From Marinomonas alcarazii (lineage in GTDB: Bacteria > Pseudomonadota > Gammaproteobacteria > Pseudomonadales > Marinomonadaceae): 64,000 nucleotides of DNA. A program made the translations under genes and the position numbers. Under the pieces are notes generated by a model. The model had not been told where the DNA came from. It made no database searches and saw only the letters and a list, made by a program, of their open reading frames with translations. How positions within the stretch are numbered: position 1 is the stretch's first letter; every line of letters starts with the position of its first letter. Below are positions 25,027-54,716 of the stretch, in pieces. The stretch is taken from the NCBI RefSeq assembly GCF_003208215.1, contig NZ_QKLW01000001.1, positions 762,234 through 826,233 of the forward strand, in the 5' to 3' direction.

Positions 25027-26697
<1,671 letters not shown>

Positions 26698-44214: not shown

Positions 44215-46146
44215 ATGAGTCTATTGTCGTTAGAACAGATTAGTGTCGCTTTCGGTCATAATCCACTGTTGTCAAAGATTAGTTTTTCAGCAGAGGCTGG
44301 AGAGCGTGTTGCAATTATTGGTCGTAATGGTGCAGGCAAATCCACATTATTAAAAGTCATCTCTGGTGAGCAAGTACCTGATGAAGGTGTGGTACGCATT
44401 GAAGGCGGAATGAAGGTTGCTCAGCTTCCTCAAGAATTGCCTGATGCAAATGAAAAAACGGTACGTGAAGTTGTGAGTGAAGGGGCTGGTGAAGCACATT
44501 CCTTAATGACTCGTTACTTTAAGTTATTAGAAGATTTTGAAAATGATCACTCAAATGAGCTAAGTGATATCCAAACTGAATTGGATCGAATTCAGGGCTG
44601 GGACCTAGAGCAACGAGTGAATCATATGGTTCAACGTTTGGCTTTGCCTGCTGACAAGTTGATGTCGGAACTGTCTGGTGGTTGGCGTCGTCGCGTTATT
44701 TTAGCGCAGGCACTTATTTCTAATCCAGATGTCTTGCTACTCGACGAACCGACTAACCATTTGGATGTGCCGACAATCGAATGGATGGAGCAGCAGCTTC
44801 AACAATTTCGTGGTTTGATTTTGTTTATTACCCATGATCGTCGCTTCCTAGAAAAATTAGCCAATCGTATTATTGAGCTAGACCGCGGCAATCTTATTTC
44901 CTTTAGCGGTAACATCACCGCGTTCTTAGCTTTTAAAGAAAAAATGTTGGAAGAAGAAGAGCGTGCAAACGCCTTGTTTGATAAACGTCTTGCTGAAGAA
45001 GAGGTTTGGATTCGTCAGGGCATTAAAGCACGTCGTACCCGTAACGAAGGTCGAGTTCGTGCCTTGAAGGCACTTCGTGAAGAGCGCTCTGAACGTATTA
45101 ATCGCCAAGGCAATGCAAAAATGGCGATTGAAACGAAAGAGAAGTCTGGCAAGTTGGTGGCGGAGTTTACGCAAGTTGGCCACTCTTTCGAAGACAAAGT
45201 CATTTTGCAGCCGATGGATTTTATTGTGAATCGCGGTGACCGTATTGGTTTGATTGGCCCCAATGGTTGCGGTAAAAGTACGTTTTTAAAGATTCTTTTG
45301 GGTAATCTGGAGCCACAGACAGGTACTGTTCGCCAGGGCACCAAACTTAACGTGGCGTATTTCGACCAGTTGCGTGAGCAACTTGACCCTGAAAAAACCG
45401 TCGCAGAGAACGTTGGTGAAGGCAAAGACGTTATCGAAATCAACGGTCAGAACAAACATGTGATTGGCTACCTTGGCGATTTTCTTTTCCCGCCAGAACG
45501 TGCACGAACACCAATCAAAGCGTTATCAGGTGGTGAGCGTAACCGAGTGTTGCTAGCGAAGCTATTCACCAAACCTGCTAACTTGCTCATTATGGATGAG
45601 CCGACCAACGACTTGGATGTAGAGACGCTGGAGTTATTAGAAGAACTTTTAATGAATTACGATGGCACTTTGTTATTGGTAAGTCACGACCGTTCTTTCC
45701 TAGACAACGTGGTCACCAGCGTTATTGCTTTTGAAGGCGAAGGCCGAGTAAAAGAATATGTTGGTGGCTATCAAGATTGGATTCGCCAAGGTGGTAAGTT
45801 CCCAACTGAATCCACTTCACAAACGGATGATGTGCCATCTAAAAAGGAAAAAGCTAAGGTAGAAGCAAGTAATGCTGAACAGGCCAATCAGAAAACGCCT
45901 GAACCAGCCAAGCCTAAAGCGAAGCTTAGCTACAAAATTCAGCGTGAATTTGATGAGATGCCTGCCACCATTGCTAAGTTAGAAGAAGAAATTGCCGCTT
46001 TGCATGTCACCACAAGTTCACCGGAGTTCTATACCGGAGATGCAGAGAATGTTCAAAAAACCTTAGCGAAGTTAGCGCATAAAGAAGAAGAGCTTGAAAC
46101 AACCATGGAGCGTTGGTTAGAGCTTGAAGAAATGCAAAACGGATAA
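44215..46146 (+). CDS. uup: ABC-F ATPase Uup
   Basis: 643 residues without membrane segments. Two ATPase domains: Walker A GRNGAGKS (36-43) with signature LSGGWRRR, and GPNGCGKS with signature LSGGERNR, separated by a linker rich in charged helices. A C-terminal coiled coil (about 560-640) follows, as in Uup. ABC-F proteins act on ribosomes; Uup also affects transposon excision. It heads a four-gene run, with the DUF2760 gene starting 3 nt after its stop. Confidence 0.93.
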   Translation: MSLLSLEQISVAFGHNPLLSKISFSAEAGERVAIIGRNGAGKSTLLKVISGEQVPDEGVVRIEGGMKVAQLPQELPDANEKTVREVVSEGAGEAHSLMTRYFKLLEDFENDHSNELSDIQTELDRIQGWDLEQRVNHMVQRLALPADKLMSELSGGWRRRVILAQALISNPDVLLLDEPTNHLDVPTIEWMEQQLQQFRGLILFITHDRRFLEKLANRIIELDRGNLISFSGNITAFLAFKEKMLEEEERANALFDKRLAEEEVWIRQGIKARRTRNEGRVRALKALREERSERINRQGNAKMAIETKEKSGKLVAEFTQVGHSFEDKVILQPMDFIVNRGDRIGLIGPNGCGKSTFLKILLGNLEPQTGTVRQGTKLNVAYFDQLREQLDPEKTVAENVGEGKDVIEINGQNKHVIGYLGDFLFPPERARTPIKALSGGERNRVLLAKLFTKPANLLIMDEPTNDLDVETLELLEELLMNYDGTLLLVSHDRSFLDNVVTSVIAFEGEGRVKEYVGGYQDWIRQGGKFPTESTSQTDDVPSKKEKAKVEASNAEQANQKTPEPAKPKAKLSYKIQREFDEMPATIAKLEEEIAALHVTTSSPEFYTGDAENVQKTLAKLAHKEEELETTMERWLELEEMQNG

Positions 46147-46149
46147 ATT

Positions 46150-46758
46150 ATGACGAATAAAATTAAACCAATTTCATTTGTACCGCGCTTTTTTGGCGCT
46201 TTTGGTCAGTTTATAAAATACATGGCGAGCGGCGATTATGCCGCTCGTTGTCAGGCGATAAGTGAAGGTAAGCAATTTGCCTTTGAAGTTGAGCCGACAG
46301 TCATTACTAAAGAAGTCGAAGTGATTCGTGAGGTTGAAGTCGCGGCTCCTATTTTGGATACGGTAAATGCAGACGGTGCCCATCAGTTATTACAACTGTT
46401 ACAACAAGAAGCGCGTTTTATCGATTTTATCCAAGAAAGCATTGATGATTATAGCGATGCTGATGTTGGTGCTGCTTCACGTCAAATTCATGCAGGCTGT
46501 TCGAAAGTATTGAAACAACACTTTACCATTGATGCGGTCTCTACATCTGTTGTCAACACTGCGGTAGAGAACAGCCGTGTTGAAGTGCCGTCTGGATATG
46601 ATGCCAAGCAGATTAAGCTTGAAGGTAAAGTCGAAGGGGATGGCCCTTATGCTGGAACGCTGATTCACCCAGGTTGGAAAGTCACTGAAACACGCTTACC
46701 AAAAGTGACGAATACAGAAAGTCTAACCATTCTAGCGCCAGCCGAAGTCGAGGTATAA
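46150..46758 (+). CDS. DUF2760 family protein
   Basis: 202 residues of the DUF2760 family, function unknown. The N-terminal third is basic and amphipathic (FVPRFFGAFGQFIKYMASGD) and could touch a membrane. A V/E-rich linker (residues about 50-70) follows. The C-terminal domain holds LLQLLQQEARFIDFIQE and GPYAGTLIHPGWKVTETRLP. It sits between uup and two Hsp70 genes with 3- and 4-nt gaps. The tight packing suggests a partner or adaptor for the Hsp70 pair; this is inference. Confidence 0.85.
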   Translation: MTNKIKPISFVPRFFGAFGQFIKYMASGDYAARCQAISEGKQFAFEVEPTVITKEVEVIREVEVAAPILDTVNADGAHQLLQLLQQEARFIDFIQESIDDYSDADVGAASRQIHAGCSKVLKQHFTIDAVSTSVVNTAVENSRVEVPSGYDAKQIKLEGKVEGDGPYAGTLIHPGWKVTETRLPKVTNTESLTILAPAEVEV

Positions 46759-46762
46759 TTCA

Positions 46763-48541
46763 GTGAGTCAATATTTCATTGGTATCGACTTGGGTACCAC
46801 GCATTCTGCTGTCTATTATTCTCCATCGACACAAACATCAACAGAAGCTGAACAAGTAGGGCGTATTCAACAATTAGCCATTCCGCAGTTTATTGCAGCA
46901 GGCCAAGTTGATGCTCGTCCTTTATTGCCTTCCTTTGTGTACTTTCCTCATCAAAGTGAGTTTTTGGAAAGCGATTTGCAGCTGCCTTGGGGTAAGGCTG
47001 CTTCTATTGTGGGCCAGCTGGCGCGAGAACTTGGTGCTAAATCTTCTGGTCGATTGGTGCAAAGTGCTAAGAGCTGGCTGTGCCATTCGAGAGTTAGTGC
47101 AGACGAAGCGGTTTTACCTGTCGATGCGCTAGAAGAAGTGCAAAAAGTGTCTCCAGCACAGGTCACAGAAACCCTTTTAGCGCATTTGGTTAGCGCATGG
47201 GGAAATCAATTTCCTGATGCTCCTATTACTGAGCAAACCGTTGTCATTACGGTTCCAGCGTCCTTTGACCCTGCCGCTCGTGCCATTACTGAGCAAGCAG
47301 CGGAAAAAGTTGGCTTACGTGCTCGTTTGATCGAAGAGCCATTAGCCGCGTTTTACGCTTGGTTAAGTGATCAACAAAATTGGACTGATAACCTAGAAGT
47401 TAACGAGCATATTTTGGTTGTTGATGTTGGTGGTGGCACGACGGATTTGTCTTTGATCCAATCAGTCGAGCAAGAAGGCGCTTTAAGTTTAGAGCGGGTG
47501 GCTGTTGGTCGTCATATTTTGCTTGGTGGCGACAATATGGACCTCACGTTAACTTACCATCTGGCGGCTCAGCTCGCGCAAAATGGCACCCATCTTGAGG
47601 CTTGGCAAATTAGCGGTCTAACACAGGCGTGTCGAGAGGCCAAAGAACGCTTGTTAACCAATGCAGACTTAGAAGAAGTCAGCGTCGTGGTGCCTAGTCG
47701 TGGCCGTAGTTTATTCAATAACAGCATTAAAGCGACCTTGACGCGAAATGATGTTCAACAGCTATTAATTGATGGTTTTTTTCCGCAAGTGCAGCTGGGT
47801 GAACAAGCTCAAAAAGCAGCGCGCAGTGGTTTCAGTGCGATTAATTTGGATTACGAGGGTGACCCTGCGATCACTCGCCATATCAGTGAGTTTTTGTCTC
47901 AGCATGATGTGAAACCAAGTAAGGTTTTGCTAAACGGCGGTGTATTCAATGCCAGTTTGATTCGCAATACTTTAGAAACACGTTTGGCTTCAATGCTGTC
48001 TGAATCATCCGGTGGCAGTGAGTTAACCATGCTGACACCTTCACATTTGGATCATGCGGTTGCCAAAGGCGCAACGTATTATGCTCAAGTGCAAGCAGAA
48101 GGTGGTGTAAAAGTAAAAAGTGGTTTAGCGGCCAATTATTACATTGGTGTTGCAAGTCCAATGCCTGCTATTCCTGGAATGGCACCACCTGTCGATGCGA
48201 TCTGCGTGGCACCATTTGGTCTGGAGGAAGGTTCAGATGAGCAAATGCTGCCGAATGAATTTTCGCTTGTTGTTGGCGAAAGTGTGACATTTCGTTTTTT
48301 CCAGTCAAAAACGAGTGAAGTGGATTCGGTTGGTAAAGTCATTGCGTCGTTTTCAATTGCACAGCTAAATGAACTAAACCCTTTATCGGTTCGCTTAGAT
48401 GCAGGTCATTATCAAGCTGGTGACATGGTTCGTGTGTATTTGACGGCCCGTGTAACTGAATTGGGGCAATTGCTGCTACAAGCCCATGACACCCAATCAG
48501 ACCTGAGTTGGACTATTGAGTTTCAAGTTAGGGAGTCTTAA
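46763..48541 (+). CDS. Divergent Hsp70-family protein (short)
   Basis: 592 residues. Actin-like Hsp70 ATPase: phosphate-1 FIGIDLGTTHSAVYY (D9), the K70-equivalent Lys in LVQSAKSWL (K103), EEPLAAFYAW (E192), phosphate-2 VVDVGGGTTDLS (D221). The adenosine motif reads LLNGGVFNAS rather than DnaK's VGG-type. After the ATPase only a beta-type substrate domain remains (to about 592), with no lid helices. Start is GTG at 46763. No DnaJ or GrpE gene is near. Not DnaK, HscA or HscC by sequence. Confidence 0.88.
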   Translation: MSQYFIGIDLGTTHSAVYYSPSTQTSTEAEQVGRIQQLAIPQFIAAGQVDARPLLPSFVYFPHQSEFLESDLQLPWGKAASIVGQLARELGAKSSGRLVQSAKSWLCHSRVSADEAVLPVDALEEVQKVSPAQVTETLLAHLVSAWGNQFPDAPITEQTVVITVPASFDPAARAITEQAAEKVGLRARLIEEPLAAFYAWLSDQQNWTDNLEVNEHILVVDVGGGTTDLSLIQSVEQEGALSLERVAVGRHILLGGDNMDLTLTYHLAAQLAQNGTHLEAWQISGLTQACREAKERLLTNADLEEVSVVVPSRGRSLFNNSIKATLTRNDVQQLLIDGFFPQVQLGEQAQKAARSGFSAINLDYEGDPAITRHISEFLSQHDVKPSKVLLNGGVFNASLIRNTLETRLASMLSESSGGSELTMLTPSHLDHAVAKGATYYAQVQAEGGVKVKSGLAANYYIGVASPMPAIPGMAPPVDAICVAPFGLEEGSDEQMLPNEFSLVVGESVTFRFFQSKTSEVDSVGKVIASFSIAQLNELNPLSVRLDAGHYQAGDMVRVYLTARVTELGQLLLQAHDTQSDLSWTIEFQVRES

Positions 48542-48544
48542 AAG

Positions 48545-51274
48545 ATGGCGAAAGCGGCTTTTCCTGCTACTTATCGAGTCGGTATTGATTTAGGGACAAC
48601 CAATTGTGTTGTCTCTTACACGCCGATTAATAGCGATGTTTCTGTCTGTGCAGAAAGCGAACCCGAACTCTTGTCGATTCCTCAAGTGATGGCGGATGGT
48701 TCTGTACAAGAGTTCGTATATTTGCCAAGTGCTATTTATGTCTTAGCGTCTGATGAAGTGGGTAAAATCGATCCTGTTTTGCCTTGGCGTCATTGTGATA
48801 AAGAGCGAGTTGTTGGTGTTGGAGCTTTGGCTCTTGGCCAGCGACGAGCAGGGCAATTGATACAAAGTGCGAAAAGCTGGCTTAGCCATCGTCAGGTTGA
48901 TAGGCGATCAGCCATTTTGCCTTGGGCAAGTGAGTTCTCGAAAAAGCTCAGTCCATTAGATGCGAGTAGAATACTCTTGTCGCACATTAAGCAAAGCTGG
49001 GATTACCGCTTTGCTGATGCACCATTAGAATATCAATCCATTGCCTTGACCTTACCTGCTTCCTTTGATGAAGAAGCGAGAGCTTTAACGTTGGAAGCAG
49101 CCAAGCTAGCAGGTTTAAAGGATTTGTACCTTCTTGAAGAGCCACAAGCGGCTTGCTATCACTATATAAGCGATGATGAAAAACTCGCGGCCATAGCAGA
49201 TAAGAAAATGCTTTTAGTGGTGGATATTGGCGGGGGTACCAGCGATTTTAGTTTGGTTGCAATTAAGCCTGTGTCGTCAAAGGGGAAGAATGTTTCTCTT
49301 AAGCGTATTGCGGTAGGCGAGCATTTATTACTTGGTGGCGATAACCTTGATCAAGCCTTGGCATTTCAGCTAGACCCCAAACAGATTTCAGCATTGTCTG
49401 CCTCGCGCTTAGCCGCGTTGGTTCAGCAAACTCGTCAGGCTAAAGAAACGCTATTAGGTGAAAATGCACCAGAGTCATTAACCATTACCGTACTGGGCGG
49501 CGGCAGTCGTCTAATTGGTGGTTCGCAAAAGTTTGATGTTTTCAGAAATACCTTGTTAGAGCAAATAACCAGTGGTTTTTTTCCTTTAGTGGATGCGGCT
49601 GACAAGGTGCAAAAAAGCGATTACGCCATGCATACCTTGGGTTTGCCCTATGAATCGGACCCTGCTTTCACTCGTCATTTAGCGGCATTTTTGCAACAGC
49701 ATAGGTCGGCCATTGAAGCTGCGACAGGTTCGGGTATGCCTGATGCGGTGTTGTTTAATGGTGGTTTATTTAATAGCCCAGTATTAAAAGCACGTTTGTT
49801 AGAGCAACTTAACGATTGGCGTGCTGAGCCTATCCTTGCTTGCGCAGCGGATGAACCTAACGATGCTGTTGCCAAAGGCGCAGTGAAGTATTTAACTGCT
49901 TTGGCGGGAGAAAGTGCACGCATTGAAAGTGGTGTGGCACACAGTTTGTATTTGCAAGTAGGAGATGATCAATTTGTTGGTATCTTGCCGAAAGGTACCT
50001 TAAAAGGCGATGCCATCGTTTTAGAGCAAGAGTTTTTTGTCACCTTGGGGCAGCAAGTTCAGTTTCCTTTATATCGCTCTGATGACCATATTGATTGTGC
50101 GGTTGGTACAGTGCGTAACCAAGAGGGCTTACATTATATTTCTACCTTGATGACCGAGCTGGACGGCTCTATCGACTCTGAAGAAGTGCCTGTAAAGCTG
50201 TCGGTACAAATGACCGAAGTGGGTGTCTTACAAGTTGAGCTAAAAGCTAACAATAAACAAGACCAATGGCGTTTGGATTTTTCAACACATGCCAGTTCTT
50301 CTCAAGAGTCTGCACAAGCAGATGAAAGCGGTTTGCTTCATGCCAATATGGGGCAAGCAGAAGAGCACTTGGCTAAATGCTTTTCTAGTGTAGGACAAAA
50401 ACAACATCCTGATCTGGTGAAATCACTTAAGCAGGATTTGGATCAGTTGCTTGGCAATCGAGATGTCTGGAATCTTGCAACGTCTCGACGTTTGGTTGAT
50501 AAGCTTTTAAGTTTGAAGTCAGGTCGAACCAAAAGTGCTCAACATGAGCGACAATGGTTACAGCTCATGGGGTATTGTTTGCGTCCAGGCTTTGGTGCCA
50601 CCGATGATTTAGCTCGTGTTCAGCAAGTGGTGAACATTACTAAAGCGGGGGCTCAGTATGATACTGCGCCAGTTTGGGGGCAATATTGGACCTTATATCG
50701 CCGTATTGCTGGTGGTTTATCCGTTGAGCAGCAAACGCATTTGTTTAAGCAGTTTAGCCAATATTATTCACCATCAGGGCAGCGATCTCGTGACAAAATG
50801 AAGGCGCTGACCACTAAGTCGAGTGATGATCTGATTCGTCTAGTTGGCGCGCTAGAACGCCTGTCGAATGAAGACAAAACCGTAACCATAGATTGGCTGC
50901 TAAAGCGTTTGCAAAAGACCTCGGAGCCAGACACCGCTTGGTGGACGATAGGACGCATAGCCTCACGTCATCTTTTATCTGGCAAGCAAGAGGAGAGAAT
51001 TGCAGAAGAAACACTTTTTCCGATTTTAGAAACTGTCCTCAAGGAAGATTGGAAGAAGCGTAAGCAAGCTGGATTGGCTGCGGTGTTAATGAGCCAGGTG
51101 AGCGTTGGGGAATCTGATAAGCTGAGCGCGTTTCGAAAGAAAGTCGCGAATAAACTCAAAAAAGACAAATGCCCCGCTCAATGGTTGGAGCGTTTAGAAA
51201 GTCAAATCGAGATTAACAGCGACGAATTGAATGCCTTGGTCGGTGAGAGCTTGCCAATTGGTTTACGCCTATAA
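48545..51274 (+). CDS. Divergent Hsp70-family protein with long C-terminal extension
   Basis: 909 residues. ATPase motifs: VGIDLGTTNCVVSY (D15), QSAKSWLSH (K110), LLEEPQAACYHY (E199), VVDIGGGTSDFSL (D227), and VLFNGGLFNS. The Hsp70 core ends near residue 580. A further 300 or so residues, helical and rich in Lys/Arg and Trp, match what is known as a DUF3731-type extension; that label is from memory of the family, not a search. It shares motifs such as SAKSWL and LGGDN with the preceding Hsp70, so the two are likely tandem paralogues. Starts 3 nt after it. Confidence 0.86.
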   Translation: MAKAAFPATYRVGIDLGTTNCVVSYTPINSDVSVCAESEPELLSIPQVMADGSVQEFVYLPSAIYVLASDEVGKIDPVLPWRHCDKERVVGVGALALGQRRAGQLIQSAKSWLSHRQVDRRSAILPWASEFSKKLSPLDASRILLSHIKQSWDYRFADAPLEYQSIALTLPASFDEEARALTLEAAKLAGLKDLYLLEEPQAACYHYISDDEKLAAIADKKMLLVVDIGGGTSDFSLVAIKPVSSKGKNVSLKRIAVGEHLLLGGDNLDQALAFQLDPKQISALSASRLAALVQQTRQAKETLLGENAPESLTITVLGGGSRLIGGSQKFDVFRNTLLEQITSGFFPLVDAADKVQKSDYAMHTLGLPYESDPAFTRHLAAFLQQHRSAIEAATGSGMPDAVLFNGGLFNSPVLKARLLEQLNDWRAEPILACAADEPNDAVAKGAVKYLTALAGESARIESGVAHSLYLQVGDDQFVGILPKGTLKGDAIVLEQEFFVTLGQQVQFPLYRSDDHIDCAVGTVRNQEGLHYISTLMTELDGSIDSEEVPVKLSVQMTEVGVLQVELKANNKQDQWRLDFSTHASSSQESAQADESGLLHANMGQAEEHLAKCFSSVGQKQHPDLVKSLKQDLDQLLGNRDVWNLATSRRLVDKLLSLKSGRTKSAQHERQWLQLMGYCLRPGFGATDDLARVQQVVNITKAGAQYDTAPVWGQYWTLYRRIAGGLSVEQQTHLFKQFSQYYSPSGQRSRDKMKALTTKSSDDLIRLVGALERLSNEDKTVTIDWLLKRLQKTSEPDTAWWTIGRIASRHLLSGKQEERIAEETLFPILETVLKEDWKKRKQAGLAAVLMSQVSVGESDKLSAFRKKVANKLKKDKCPAQWLERLESQIEINSDELNALVGESLPIGLRL

Positions 51275-52529: not shown

Positions 52530-54716
52530 TTATTTCAATGAATGTGCTTTACGCGCTTGATGAAGTTTCTTATAACTTTCAATTAAGCGCAAATGTGGTT
52601 CAATGCCTTCAAGTTGCATGCTGGTTTTGGTTAAACCGTAAAAGCGCACATCGCCTTTAACGGAGCCAATAACGTTATCGATGACTTCTTTACCAAACAT
52701 TCGGCTGAAGCTATGAACAAAATGATCCAGTTCTAATTCATCGTCTAGAGTGACTTCTAGTACACAATTCATGGCTTGATAAAATAAGCCTCGCTCCGCT
52801 GTGTTGTCGTTGAATTGTAAAAATTCACCCACCAGTTCTAGTGCGTCTTCATGGGCACCAAGAGCCAAGTAAATTAGAATCTTAAGCTCCATAATGGTTA
52901 ACTGTCCCCAGACGGTATTTTCATCAAATACAATGCCAATCAAGGTTGGGATGTCGGTATAGTTATCTAGTTGACTTTCTTCTAGACGATTAACTAAGTC
53001 TTCTAATTGATCATCACTTAAGGCATGTAGGTTTAGAATATCTTCACGATAATCCAGCGCTTTGTTGGTATTATCCCAAACTAAGTCTTCTACTGGATAG
53101 ACTTCGGAATAATCTGGAACCAAAATACGACAAGCGGCAGCGCCTAAGTCTGTTAACTCGGCTACATACACTTCTTTATCTAGGTCCTCTAAGATACCAA
53201 ATAACGCATTAGCTTCTTCTTCGCTGGTCCCAGAAAAGTCCCATTCGACAAAATCATAGTCAGCTTGGTCACTGAAGAAGCGCCAAGAAATAACGCCTGT
53301 TGAGTCAATAAAGTGTTCAACGAAGTTTTCTGGTTCTGTAACGGCCATACTGTTAAAGGTAGGCTTTGGTACATCGTTTAAGCCTTCGAAACTACGTCCT
53401 TGCATTAACTCAGTTAAACTACGTTCTAAAGCAACTTCGAAACTTGGGTGAGCACCAAAAGAAGCAAACACACCGCCAGTTCTTGGGTTCATTAATGTAA
53501 CGTTCATGACTGGGAACTGGCCACCAAGCGACGCGTCTTTCACTAGGATTGGAAAGCCTTGTTCTTCTAGCCCTTTGATGCCAGCAAGGATGCTTGGGTA
53601 TTGTTCCAACACTGCCATTGGTACATCCGGCAAGACAATCTCGTCTTCGATAATCTGGCGTTTTACCGCACGCTCGATGATTTCAGATAAGCATTGTACT
53701 TGCGCTTCTTGTTGGTTATTACCCGCGCTCATGCCGTTGCTTAAGAATAAGTTTTCGATGAGGTTTGATGGGAAATAAACCGTTTCCCCATCGGATTTGC
53801 GTGTGTAAGGAATGGTGCAAATACCACGGGCTTTATTGCCTGAGTTTGTATCGATCAAGTGTGAGCCGCGCAGCTCATCGTCTGGATTGTAAATCTCCAA
53901 GCAGTAATCATCTAAGATGCCTTCCGGTAAGGAATCGTCTTCTGTTAATGCAAACCATTTTTCATTCGGGTAATGAACAAAATCACTGTTAGCGATTTCG
54001 GTACCAAAAAACTGATCATTATAGAAAAAGTTGTTGTTTAAACGTTCGATGAATTCCCCAAGAGCAGAACACAGAGCGCTTTCTTTAGAGGCGCCTTTGC
54101 CGTTGGTAAAGCACATTGGAGAGGCTGCATCACGAATGTGCAACGACCAAACGTTTGGCACTATGTTACGCCAAGATGATATTTCAATTTTCATCCCAAG
54201 ATCGGCTAACATAGCCGTCATGTTACTGATGGTTTCTTCCAGTGGTAAGTCTTTCCCAGGAATGAAAGTGTTGGATGAGCCGTCTGGTTGGCCCATTAAC
54301 ATAGCATTGGCGTCAGCGTCTAAGTTTTCAACGGTCTCAATTTTGAATTCAGGACCAGTTTGTACGACTTTTTTTACTGTGCAGCGATCAATAGAGCGCA
54401 AAATGCCTTGGCGGTCTTTATCTGAAATATCGTCAGGCAGCTCGACATGAATTTGAAAAATCTGATTATAACGGTCTTCTGGGTCGACGATATTATTCTG
54501 AGACAAGCGAATATTGTCTGTCGAGATATCGCGAGACTTACAATATACCTTGACGAAATAGGCGGCACATAACGCAGAGGAAGCTAGGAAATAATCAAAT
54601 GGACTGGGTGCTGAGCCATCGCCTTTGTAGCGTATTGGCTGATCTGCAGTGACGGTAAAATCATCAAACTTGGCTTCTAGTCTGAGATTGTCGAGAAAAT
54701 TAACTTTGATTTCCAT
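52530..54716 (-). CDS. OsmC domain-YcaO domain fusion protein
   Basis: 728 residues. Residues 1-130 are OsmC-like, with two candidate catalytic cysteines (C50 in SSALCAAY and C112 in DRCTVKK) of the kind that reduce organic hydroperoxides. Residues 150-600 are YcaO-like, with ATP/Mg-binding GEFIERLNN and CLSEIIERAVKR and the C-terminal tail of E. coli YcaO. E. coli YcaO supports methylthiolation of ribosomal protein S12. The role of the fused OsmC part is unknown. Cytoplasmic; length exceeds E. coli YcaO by about 140 residues because of the fusion. Confidence 0.87.
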   Translation of the reverse strand: MEIKVNFLDNLRLEAKFDDFTVTADQPIRYKGDGSAPSPFDYFLASSALCAAYFVKVYCKSRDISTDNIRLSQNNIVDPEDRYNQIFQIHVELPDDISDKDRQGILRSIDRCTVKKVVQTGPEFKIETVENLDADANAMLMGQPDGSSNTFIPGKDLPLEETISNMTAMLADLGMKIEISSWRNIVPNVWSLHIRDAASPMCFTNGKGASKESALCSALGEFIERLNNNFFYNDQFFGTEIANSDFVHYPNEKWFALTEDDSLPEGILDDYCLEIYNPDDELRGSHLIDTNSGNKARGICTIPYTRKSDGETVYFPSNLIENLFLSNGMSAGNNQQEAQVQCLSEIIERAVKRQIIEDEIVLPDVPMAVLEQYPSILAGIKGLEEQGFPILVKDASLGGQFPVMNVTLMNPRTGGVFASFGAHPSFEVALERSLTELMQGRSFEGLNDVPKPTFNSMAVTEPENFVEHFIDSTGVISWRFFSDQADYDFVEWDFSGTSEEEANALFGILEDLDKEVYVAELTDLGAAACRILVPDYSEVYPVEDLVWDNTNKALDYREDILNLHALSDDQLEDLVNRLEESQLDNYTDIPTLIGIVFDENTVWGQLTIMELKILIYLALGAHEDALELVGEFLQFNDNTAERGLFYQAMNCVLEVTLDDELELDHFVHSFSRMFGKEVIDNVIGSVKGDVRFYGLTKTSMQLEGIEPHLRLIESYKKLHQARKAHSLK

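Follow-up and report, generated by a model that had tools for sequence, protein, structure and literature searches.

The locus at positions 44215-51274 of the window (the whole stretch of 64,000 nucleotides of Marinomonas alcarazii DNA that was analysed) raises the question of whether its four genes encode a dedicated chaperone machine and which of them belong to it. The cluster had been described as uup, a DUF2760 gene, and two divergent Hsp70 genes, and the open reading frames matched this description exactly, with all four genes on the + strand and gaps of 3, 4, and 3 nt by ORF coordinates:

44215-46146, + strand: uup, encoding a Uup-type ABC-F ATPase of 643 aa, the first gene of the tight run
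46150-46758, + strand: DUF2760 gene, encoding a protein of 202 aa (PF10816)
46763-48541, + strand: hspA, with a GTG start, encoding a divergent Hsp70 of 592 aa that comprises an NBD and a beta-sandwich and has no lid
48545-51274, + strand: hspB, encoding a divergent Hsp70 of 909 aa, by alignment a paralogue of HspA over the NBD and beta-sandwich
50342-51271, + strand: DUF3731 (PF12531) of HspB, a C-terminal all-helical domain at the position of the canonical lid

Family searches supported these annotations. The Uup protein scored 878 bits against NF050005 (curated cut-off 900), far above all other ABC-F models, and its C-terminal domain PF16326 was found. The DUF2760 protein matched PF10816 (E 1.5e-46, 157.7 bits) above the gathering score of 25, and its ten closest relatives were all from Marinomonas species (73-89% identity). 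Both HspA and HspB matched PF00012 (81 and 56 bits against a cut-off of 20.6) and are thus members of the Hsp70 superfamily. The last 250 residues of HspB matched PF12531 (E 4.5e-75, 253 bits; gathering score 25); the 300-residue tail noticed earlier therefore exists, and what had been left unnamed is the domain that Pfam calls DUF3731. Elsewhere in the window, we observed a groEL-type chaperonin gene (PF00118) at 25051-26697, about 18 kb upstream, and an OsmC-YcaO fusion at 52530-54716 (TIGR03549, 1490 bits), named S12 methylthiotransferase accessory factor by NCBI.

The conserved unit consisted of the last three genes, DUF2760-hspA-hspB, without uup. This trio was seen again in Burkholderiales, Rhodocyclales, Methylococcales, Vibrio, conjugative plasmids of Bradyrhizobium, and Myxococcota. 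In an even class sample of 229 genomes, DUF2760 was present in nine and DUF3731 in ten; all nine DUF2760 genomes contained DUF3731 (Fisher p 2.5e-15, uncorrected for relatedness), and the contig of the tenth DUF3731 genome stopped inside hspA. Both domains occurred in the same 47 of 49 Marinomonas genomes and were absent from the same two, from which HspA was absent too; one complete trio-less genome showed no trio remnants downstream of uup. Among 72,556 plasmid records, DUF2760 was found in 11, two of which were conjugative Bradyrhizobium plasmids, and an HspB-type match was found in the same 11 (that of Thiodictyon being hspA only). On the Bradyrhizobium plasmid pCB82_1, the trio was located about 1 kb from groES-groEL.

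Gene order was examined in 80 named loci of many genera, in all of which hspA directly followed DUF2760, and DUF2760 was the most constant neighbour of hspA. The hspB gene belonged to the same locus in 70 of the 80 (67 full length, three cut by the edge). For five of the ten loci lacking hspB, the whole genome was searched, and DUF3731 was detected elsewhere in four; the fifth genome, that of Ca. Thiosymbion, gave no DUF3731 match, and the Thiodictyon plasmid pTs485 (L235) carried DUF2760-hspA alone, without hspB. In Myxococcota, DUF3731 was present in 40 of 237 genomes, and the three genes stood in order at 22 of 32 fetched loci; at the locus level, the other ten (L275, L276, L278-L281, L283, L288, L296, and L299) contained hspB with neither hspA nor DUF2760 nearby. 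Judging from the lone-hspB loci of Myxococcota together with Ca. Thiosymbion and Thiodictyon, some lineages may use HspB on its own or do without it. About six of the ten lone-hspB loci scored closer to the proteobacterial HspB profile. The pTs485 region also contained anti-phage genes (DUF1156, PLD-like, TIR, and VapC) around DUF2760-hspA.

At 70 of the 92 loci from outside Marinomonas, the overlap between DUF2760 and hspA was exactly 4 nt, which suggests that translation of the two genes is coupled in these bacteria. Across the loci examined, we found neither a recurrent extra neighbour of the trio nor an inserted gene recurring between hspA and hspB. A small signal-peptide/lipoprotein-like gene was observed just upstream of DUF2760 in Methylococcales-type loci (L133, L137, L175, and L176) and apparently also in L068. 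Apparent HspA-HspB fusions of 1415-1485 aa at four GC-rich loci were rejected as artefacts: a long alternative frame is open there, and hspA itself is intact. In L091 (G261), a Marinomonas assembly with 7% contamination, the genes for an RND pump, Uup, and HspB were split by apparent frameshifts, likely reflecting poor sequence quality. The three genes are thus co-inherited as a unit far beyond the genus Marinomonas. The original prediction had stated that it would be contradicted if the Hsp70 pair and DUF2760 were found widely both without uup and without each other; of this combination, we observed the absence of uup but no general separation of the three genes.

The two Hsp70s aligned over 589 columns spanning the NBD and beta-sandwich with 33% identity, which identifies them as paralogues over these domains. 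The full ATPase motifs attributed to both proteins were borne out: the catalytic and allosteric residues D8, T11, K70, P143, E171, D194, T199, and D201 (DnaK numbering) were invariant, and R151 nearly so, across 34 HspA and 40 HspB sequences, and both proteins are predicted to be ATPase-competent. The unusual NGG adenosine motif likewise proved real and invariant in the same sequences. A canonical lid was found in neither protein; HspA has none, as described earlier, because it ends after the beta-sandwich, and HspB has DUF3731 in the lid's place. In the predicted HspB model (pLDDT 81), residues 10-453 form an Hsp70 NBD, residues 468-579 a docked beta-sandwich, and residues 602-899 an all-helical domain. 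Residues 8-583 showed strong fold matches to DnaK and BiP, including the DnaK model 9a5j (VIA Z 36.5, rmsd 4.6 over 457 residues) and the experimental DnaK structure 7krv (Z 34.0 over 466 residues). These fold-search lists were filled by the Hsp70 part and so did not reach DUF3731, for which the only hit was a non-significant, importin-alpha-like one (E 0.06).

Such an arrangement recalls the eukaryotic Hsp70:Hsp110 system, which also combines two related Hsp70-type ATPases, one of them with an enlarged C-terminal half. On this analogy, HspB might promote nucleotide exchange on HspA in the manner of Hsp110, with DUF3731 standing in for the extended helical region and DUF2760 being no more than a scaffold. 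The regular pairing of two paralogous Hsp70s, one enlarged in its C-terminal half, fits this reading, and the HspB model matched Sse1 (2qxl, E 7.9e-19) and Hsp110:Hsc70 (3c7n) among many Hsp70s. However, DnaK and BiP outscored Hsp110 in these matches, all catalytic residues are intact in HspB, and some genomes carry hspB without adjacent hspA. The trio also differs in being bacterial and in carrying DUF3731 where Hsp110 has its helical region, and we regard the exchange-factor reading as doubtful.

Assignment to a known class was similarly examined. HscA was the best NCBIfam model for both proteins, at 79-93 bits against HscA cut-offs of 620-709, and scores against the curated equivalogs were 72 bits for DnaK (cut-off 648) and 93 bits for HscA (cut-off 620), which places the proteins in neither. 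The likeness to HscA, the Hsp70 of Fe-S assembly, thus consists in this best score, whereas HspA and HspB fall far under the cut-offs, have no isc context, and lack a DVLLLD-type linker. In the phylogenetic tree, E. coli DnaK, HscA, and HscC formed a 100/100 group, from which HspA/HspB were separated by a branch of 5.3 changes per site; YegD and HscC were long branches, and therefore only this separation was used. HspA and HspB accordingly appear to form a branch outside DnaK/HscA/HscC. The other PF00012 matches of this Marinomonas genome were DnaK, a YegD-like protein, and MreB only, with HscA and HscC absent from the search results; as the genome is without HscA, we also considered the pair as an HscA replacement.

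The columns of the DVLLLD linker were empty in 34 of 34 HspA and 39 of 40 HspB sequences; the linker region is poorly aligned, and the claim is therefore limited to absence of the motif and does not extend to exact column equivalence. N170 of DnaK, which we take to be a J-domain contact, was replaced by E in all 74 sequences. Q378 was mostly Y, and R167 was variable and lost in most HspA sequences (DnaK numbering); these two residues and the linker residue L391 are J-domain contacts of DnaK (PMC8215388). The alignment thus indicates that the canonical J-contacts are changed in HspA and HspB, which leaves room for J-protein binding as such. In agreement with the original prediction, no J-domain or GrpE gene was present in the window; the genome has dnaJ, three other J-domain genes, and a single grpE, all at other loci. 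Their presence, together with the predicted Hsp70 architecture with a docked beta-sandwich, would suit an ordinary accessory Hsp70 pair that works with the housekeeping DnaJ and GrpE and for which DUF2760 is a minor passenger. We consider this unlikely in view of the altered contact residues, the missing linker motif, and the constancy of DUF2760 beside hspA.

The DUF2760 protein is laid out as an amphipathic helix (approximately aa 10-26), a low-complexity spacer (approximately aa 45-70), and a conserved core (approximately aa 70-202) with 23 invariant positions among 55 sequences. The N-terminal helix follows the pattern FxxRLxLAFGxFFxxL from Marinomonas to Myxococcota, and other lineages have one or two TM helices in its place; KD19 was at least 1.6 in 17 of 70 sequences. 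Hydrophobic moments of 0.42-0.56 and a mean hydrophobicity of 0.7-1.2 are compatible with a helix lying on the membrane surface, and the spacer that follows is Pro/Ala-rich or of the EKxVEK type. Helix type and spacer favour a domain that would be tethered at the membrane. The Marinomonas helix is short and has a low TM-scale score (0.9), and membrane attachment in Marinomonas is therefore uncertain. The core had no sequence relative in the PDB, and the predicted model, which was of moderate quality (pLDDT 74, pTM 0.49), gave no significant PDB or VIA match. No J-domain was detectable in DUF2760. Its layout of helices followed by beta structure suggested by eye a relative of GrpE; this candidate was rejected by profile comparison (hhalign probability 0.4%). 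Sigma32-type heat-shock promoters were not enriched upstream of DUF2760 over random windows.

Uup-type ABC-F proteins act on ribosomes, and the original prediction accordingly proposed that the chaperones might be coupled to translation; in this reading, Uup would bring the trio to ribosomes. In all 26 Marinomonas loci, uup was directly upstream of the trio (gaps of -8 to 32 nt), which makes co-transcription of uup and the trio likely in this genus, and Ssz1 (6sr6) was among the fold matches of HspB. The parallel would be yeast RAC-Ssb (Ssz1/Zuo1/Ssb; PMC8476630), which likewise combines an atypical lidless Hsp70, a second Hsp70, and a tethering third protein; the trio differs in having no J-domain protein and no conserved ribosome link, and Ssb is canonical whereas HspB is not. 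Against this proposal, uup adjoined the trio at none of the non-Marinomonas loci examined, was located elsewhere in the five non-Marinomonas trio genomes checked, and was retained in the two trio-less Marinomonas genomes. The link to translation is therefore weak, and we judge this reading highly unlikely; gene order is widely conserved for DUF2760-hspA-hspB, and the position of uup is specific to Marinomonas, where the gene appears to be a lineage-specific operon partner outside the conserved module.

It is highly improbable that the three genes form no machine and are linked only because they move as a mobile or selfish element. Two conjugative Bradyrhizobium plasmids and one defence-rich plasmid region do carry them, but they are usually kept in the genome when their order is broken, are near-universal in Marinomonas, show the 4-nt DUF2760/hspA overlap, include no mobility genes, and gave neither a phage occurrence nor a real PADLOC match. 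An anti-phage role of the trio was also considered and rejected: the sole PADLOC result was a weak match of the NBD to PDC-M61B, and no phage record was found.

We therefore favour, as on balance probable, the reading that DUF2760, HspA, and HspB form a dedicated, membrane-tethered two-Hsp70 machine of which DUF2760 is an obligate partner. The proposal of a dedicated machine with DUF2760 as its partner or membrane link is to this extent strengthened by the co-inheritance of the trio beyond the genus and by the membrane-type N-terminal helix. In the proposed mechanism, DUF2760 would sit at the cytoplasmic membrane via its amphipathic or TM helix, and the flexible spacer would present the conserved core to HspA and HspB. 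DUF2760 would serve as a tether and probably also as a regulator, replacing the targeting, and perhaps the activating, role of a J-domain protein. The lidless HspA and HspB, with its all-helical DUF3731 instead of a lid, would probably act as a heteromeric pair, in a physical complex with DUF2760, on clients bound near the membrane. The closest organisational parallel in E. coli is HscC with the tail-anchored J-proteins DjlB/DjlC (PMC8215388), an accessory Hsp70 whose membrane-anchored partner is encoded close by. HscC differs in having a lid region and J-domain partners, whereas the trio has two paralogous Hsp70s without a lid and a DUF2760 without a detectable J-domain; HspA/HspB were, moreover, placed outside DnaK/HscA/HscC in the tree.

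Three types of prokaryotic Hsp70, DnaK, HscA, and HscC, have been distinguished, all discussed with J-domain partners (2021 review, PMC8215388). The literature searched did not mention DUF2760, DUF3731, or their accessions, and the field therefore seems open. A possible phenotype lead for the module is MXAN_5323 of M. xanthus, a candidate family member: this divergent Hsp70 (WP_011555288.1) has 925 aa, and its deletion reduces sporulation and resistance to oxidative stress (PMC8265645). We tentatively raise the possibility that the trio represents a further class of bacterial Hsp70 machine, in which an obligate pair of paralogues would work independently of J-domain proteins and GrpE, under the control of membrane-attached DUF2760, a regulator of a new kind. 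If this were true, a tightly co-inherited and widely scattered trio would add a further type to the bacterial Hsp70s beyond DnaK, HscA, and HscC, and would make it testable whether a protein other than a J-domain protein can drive an Hsp70.
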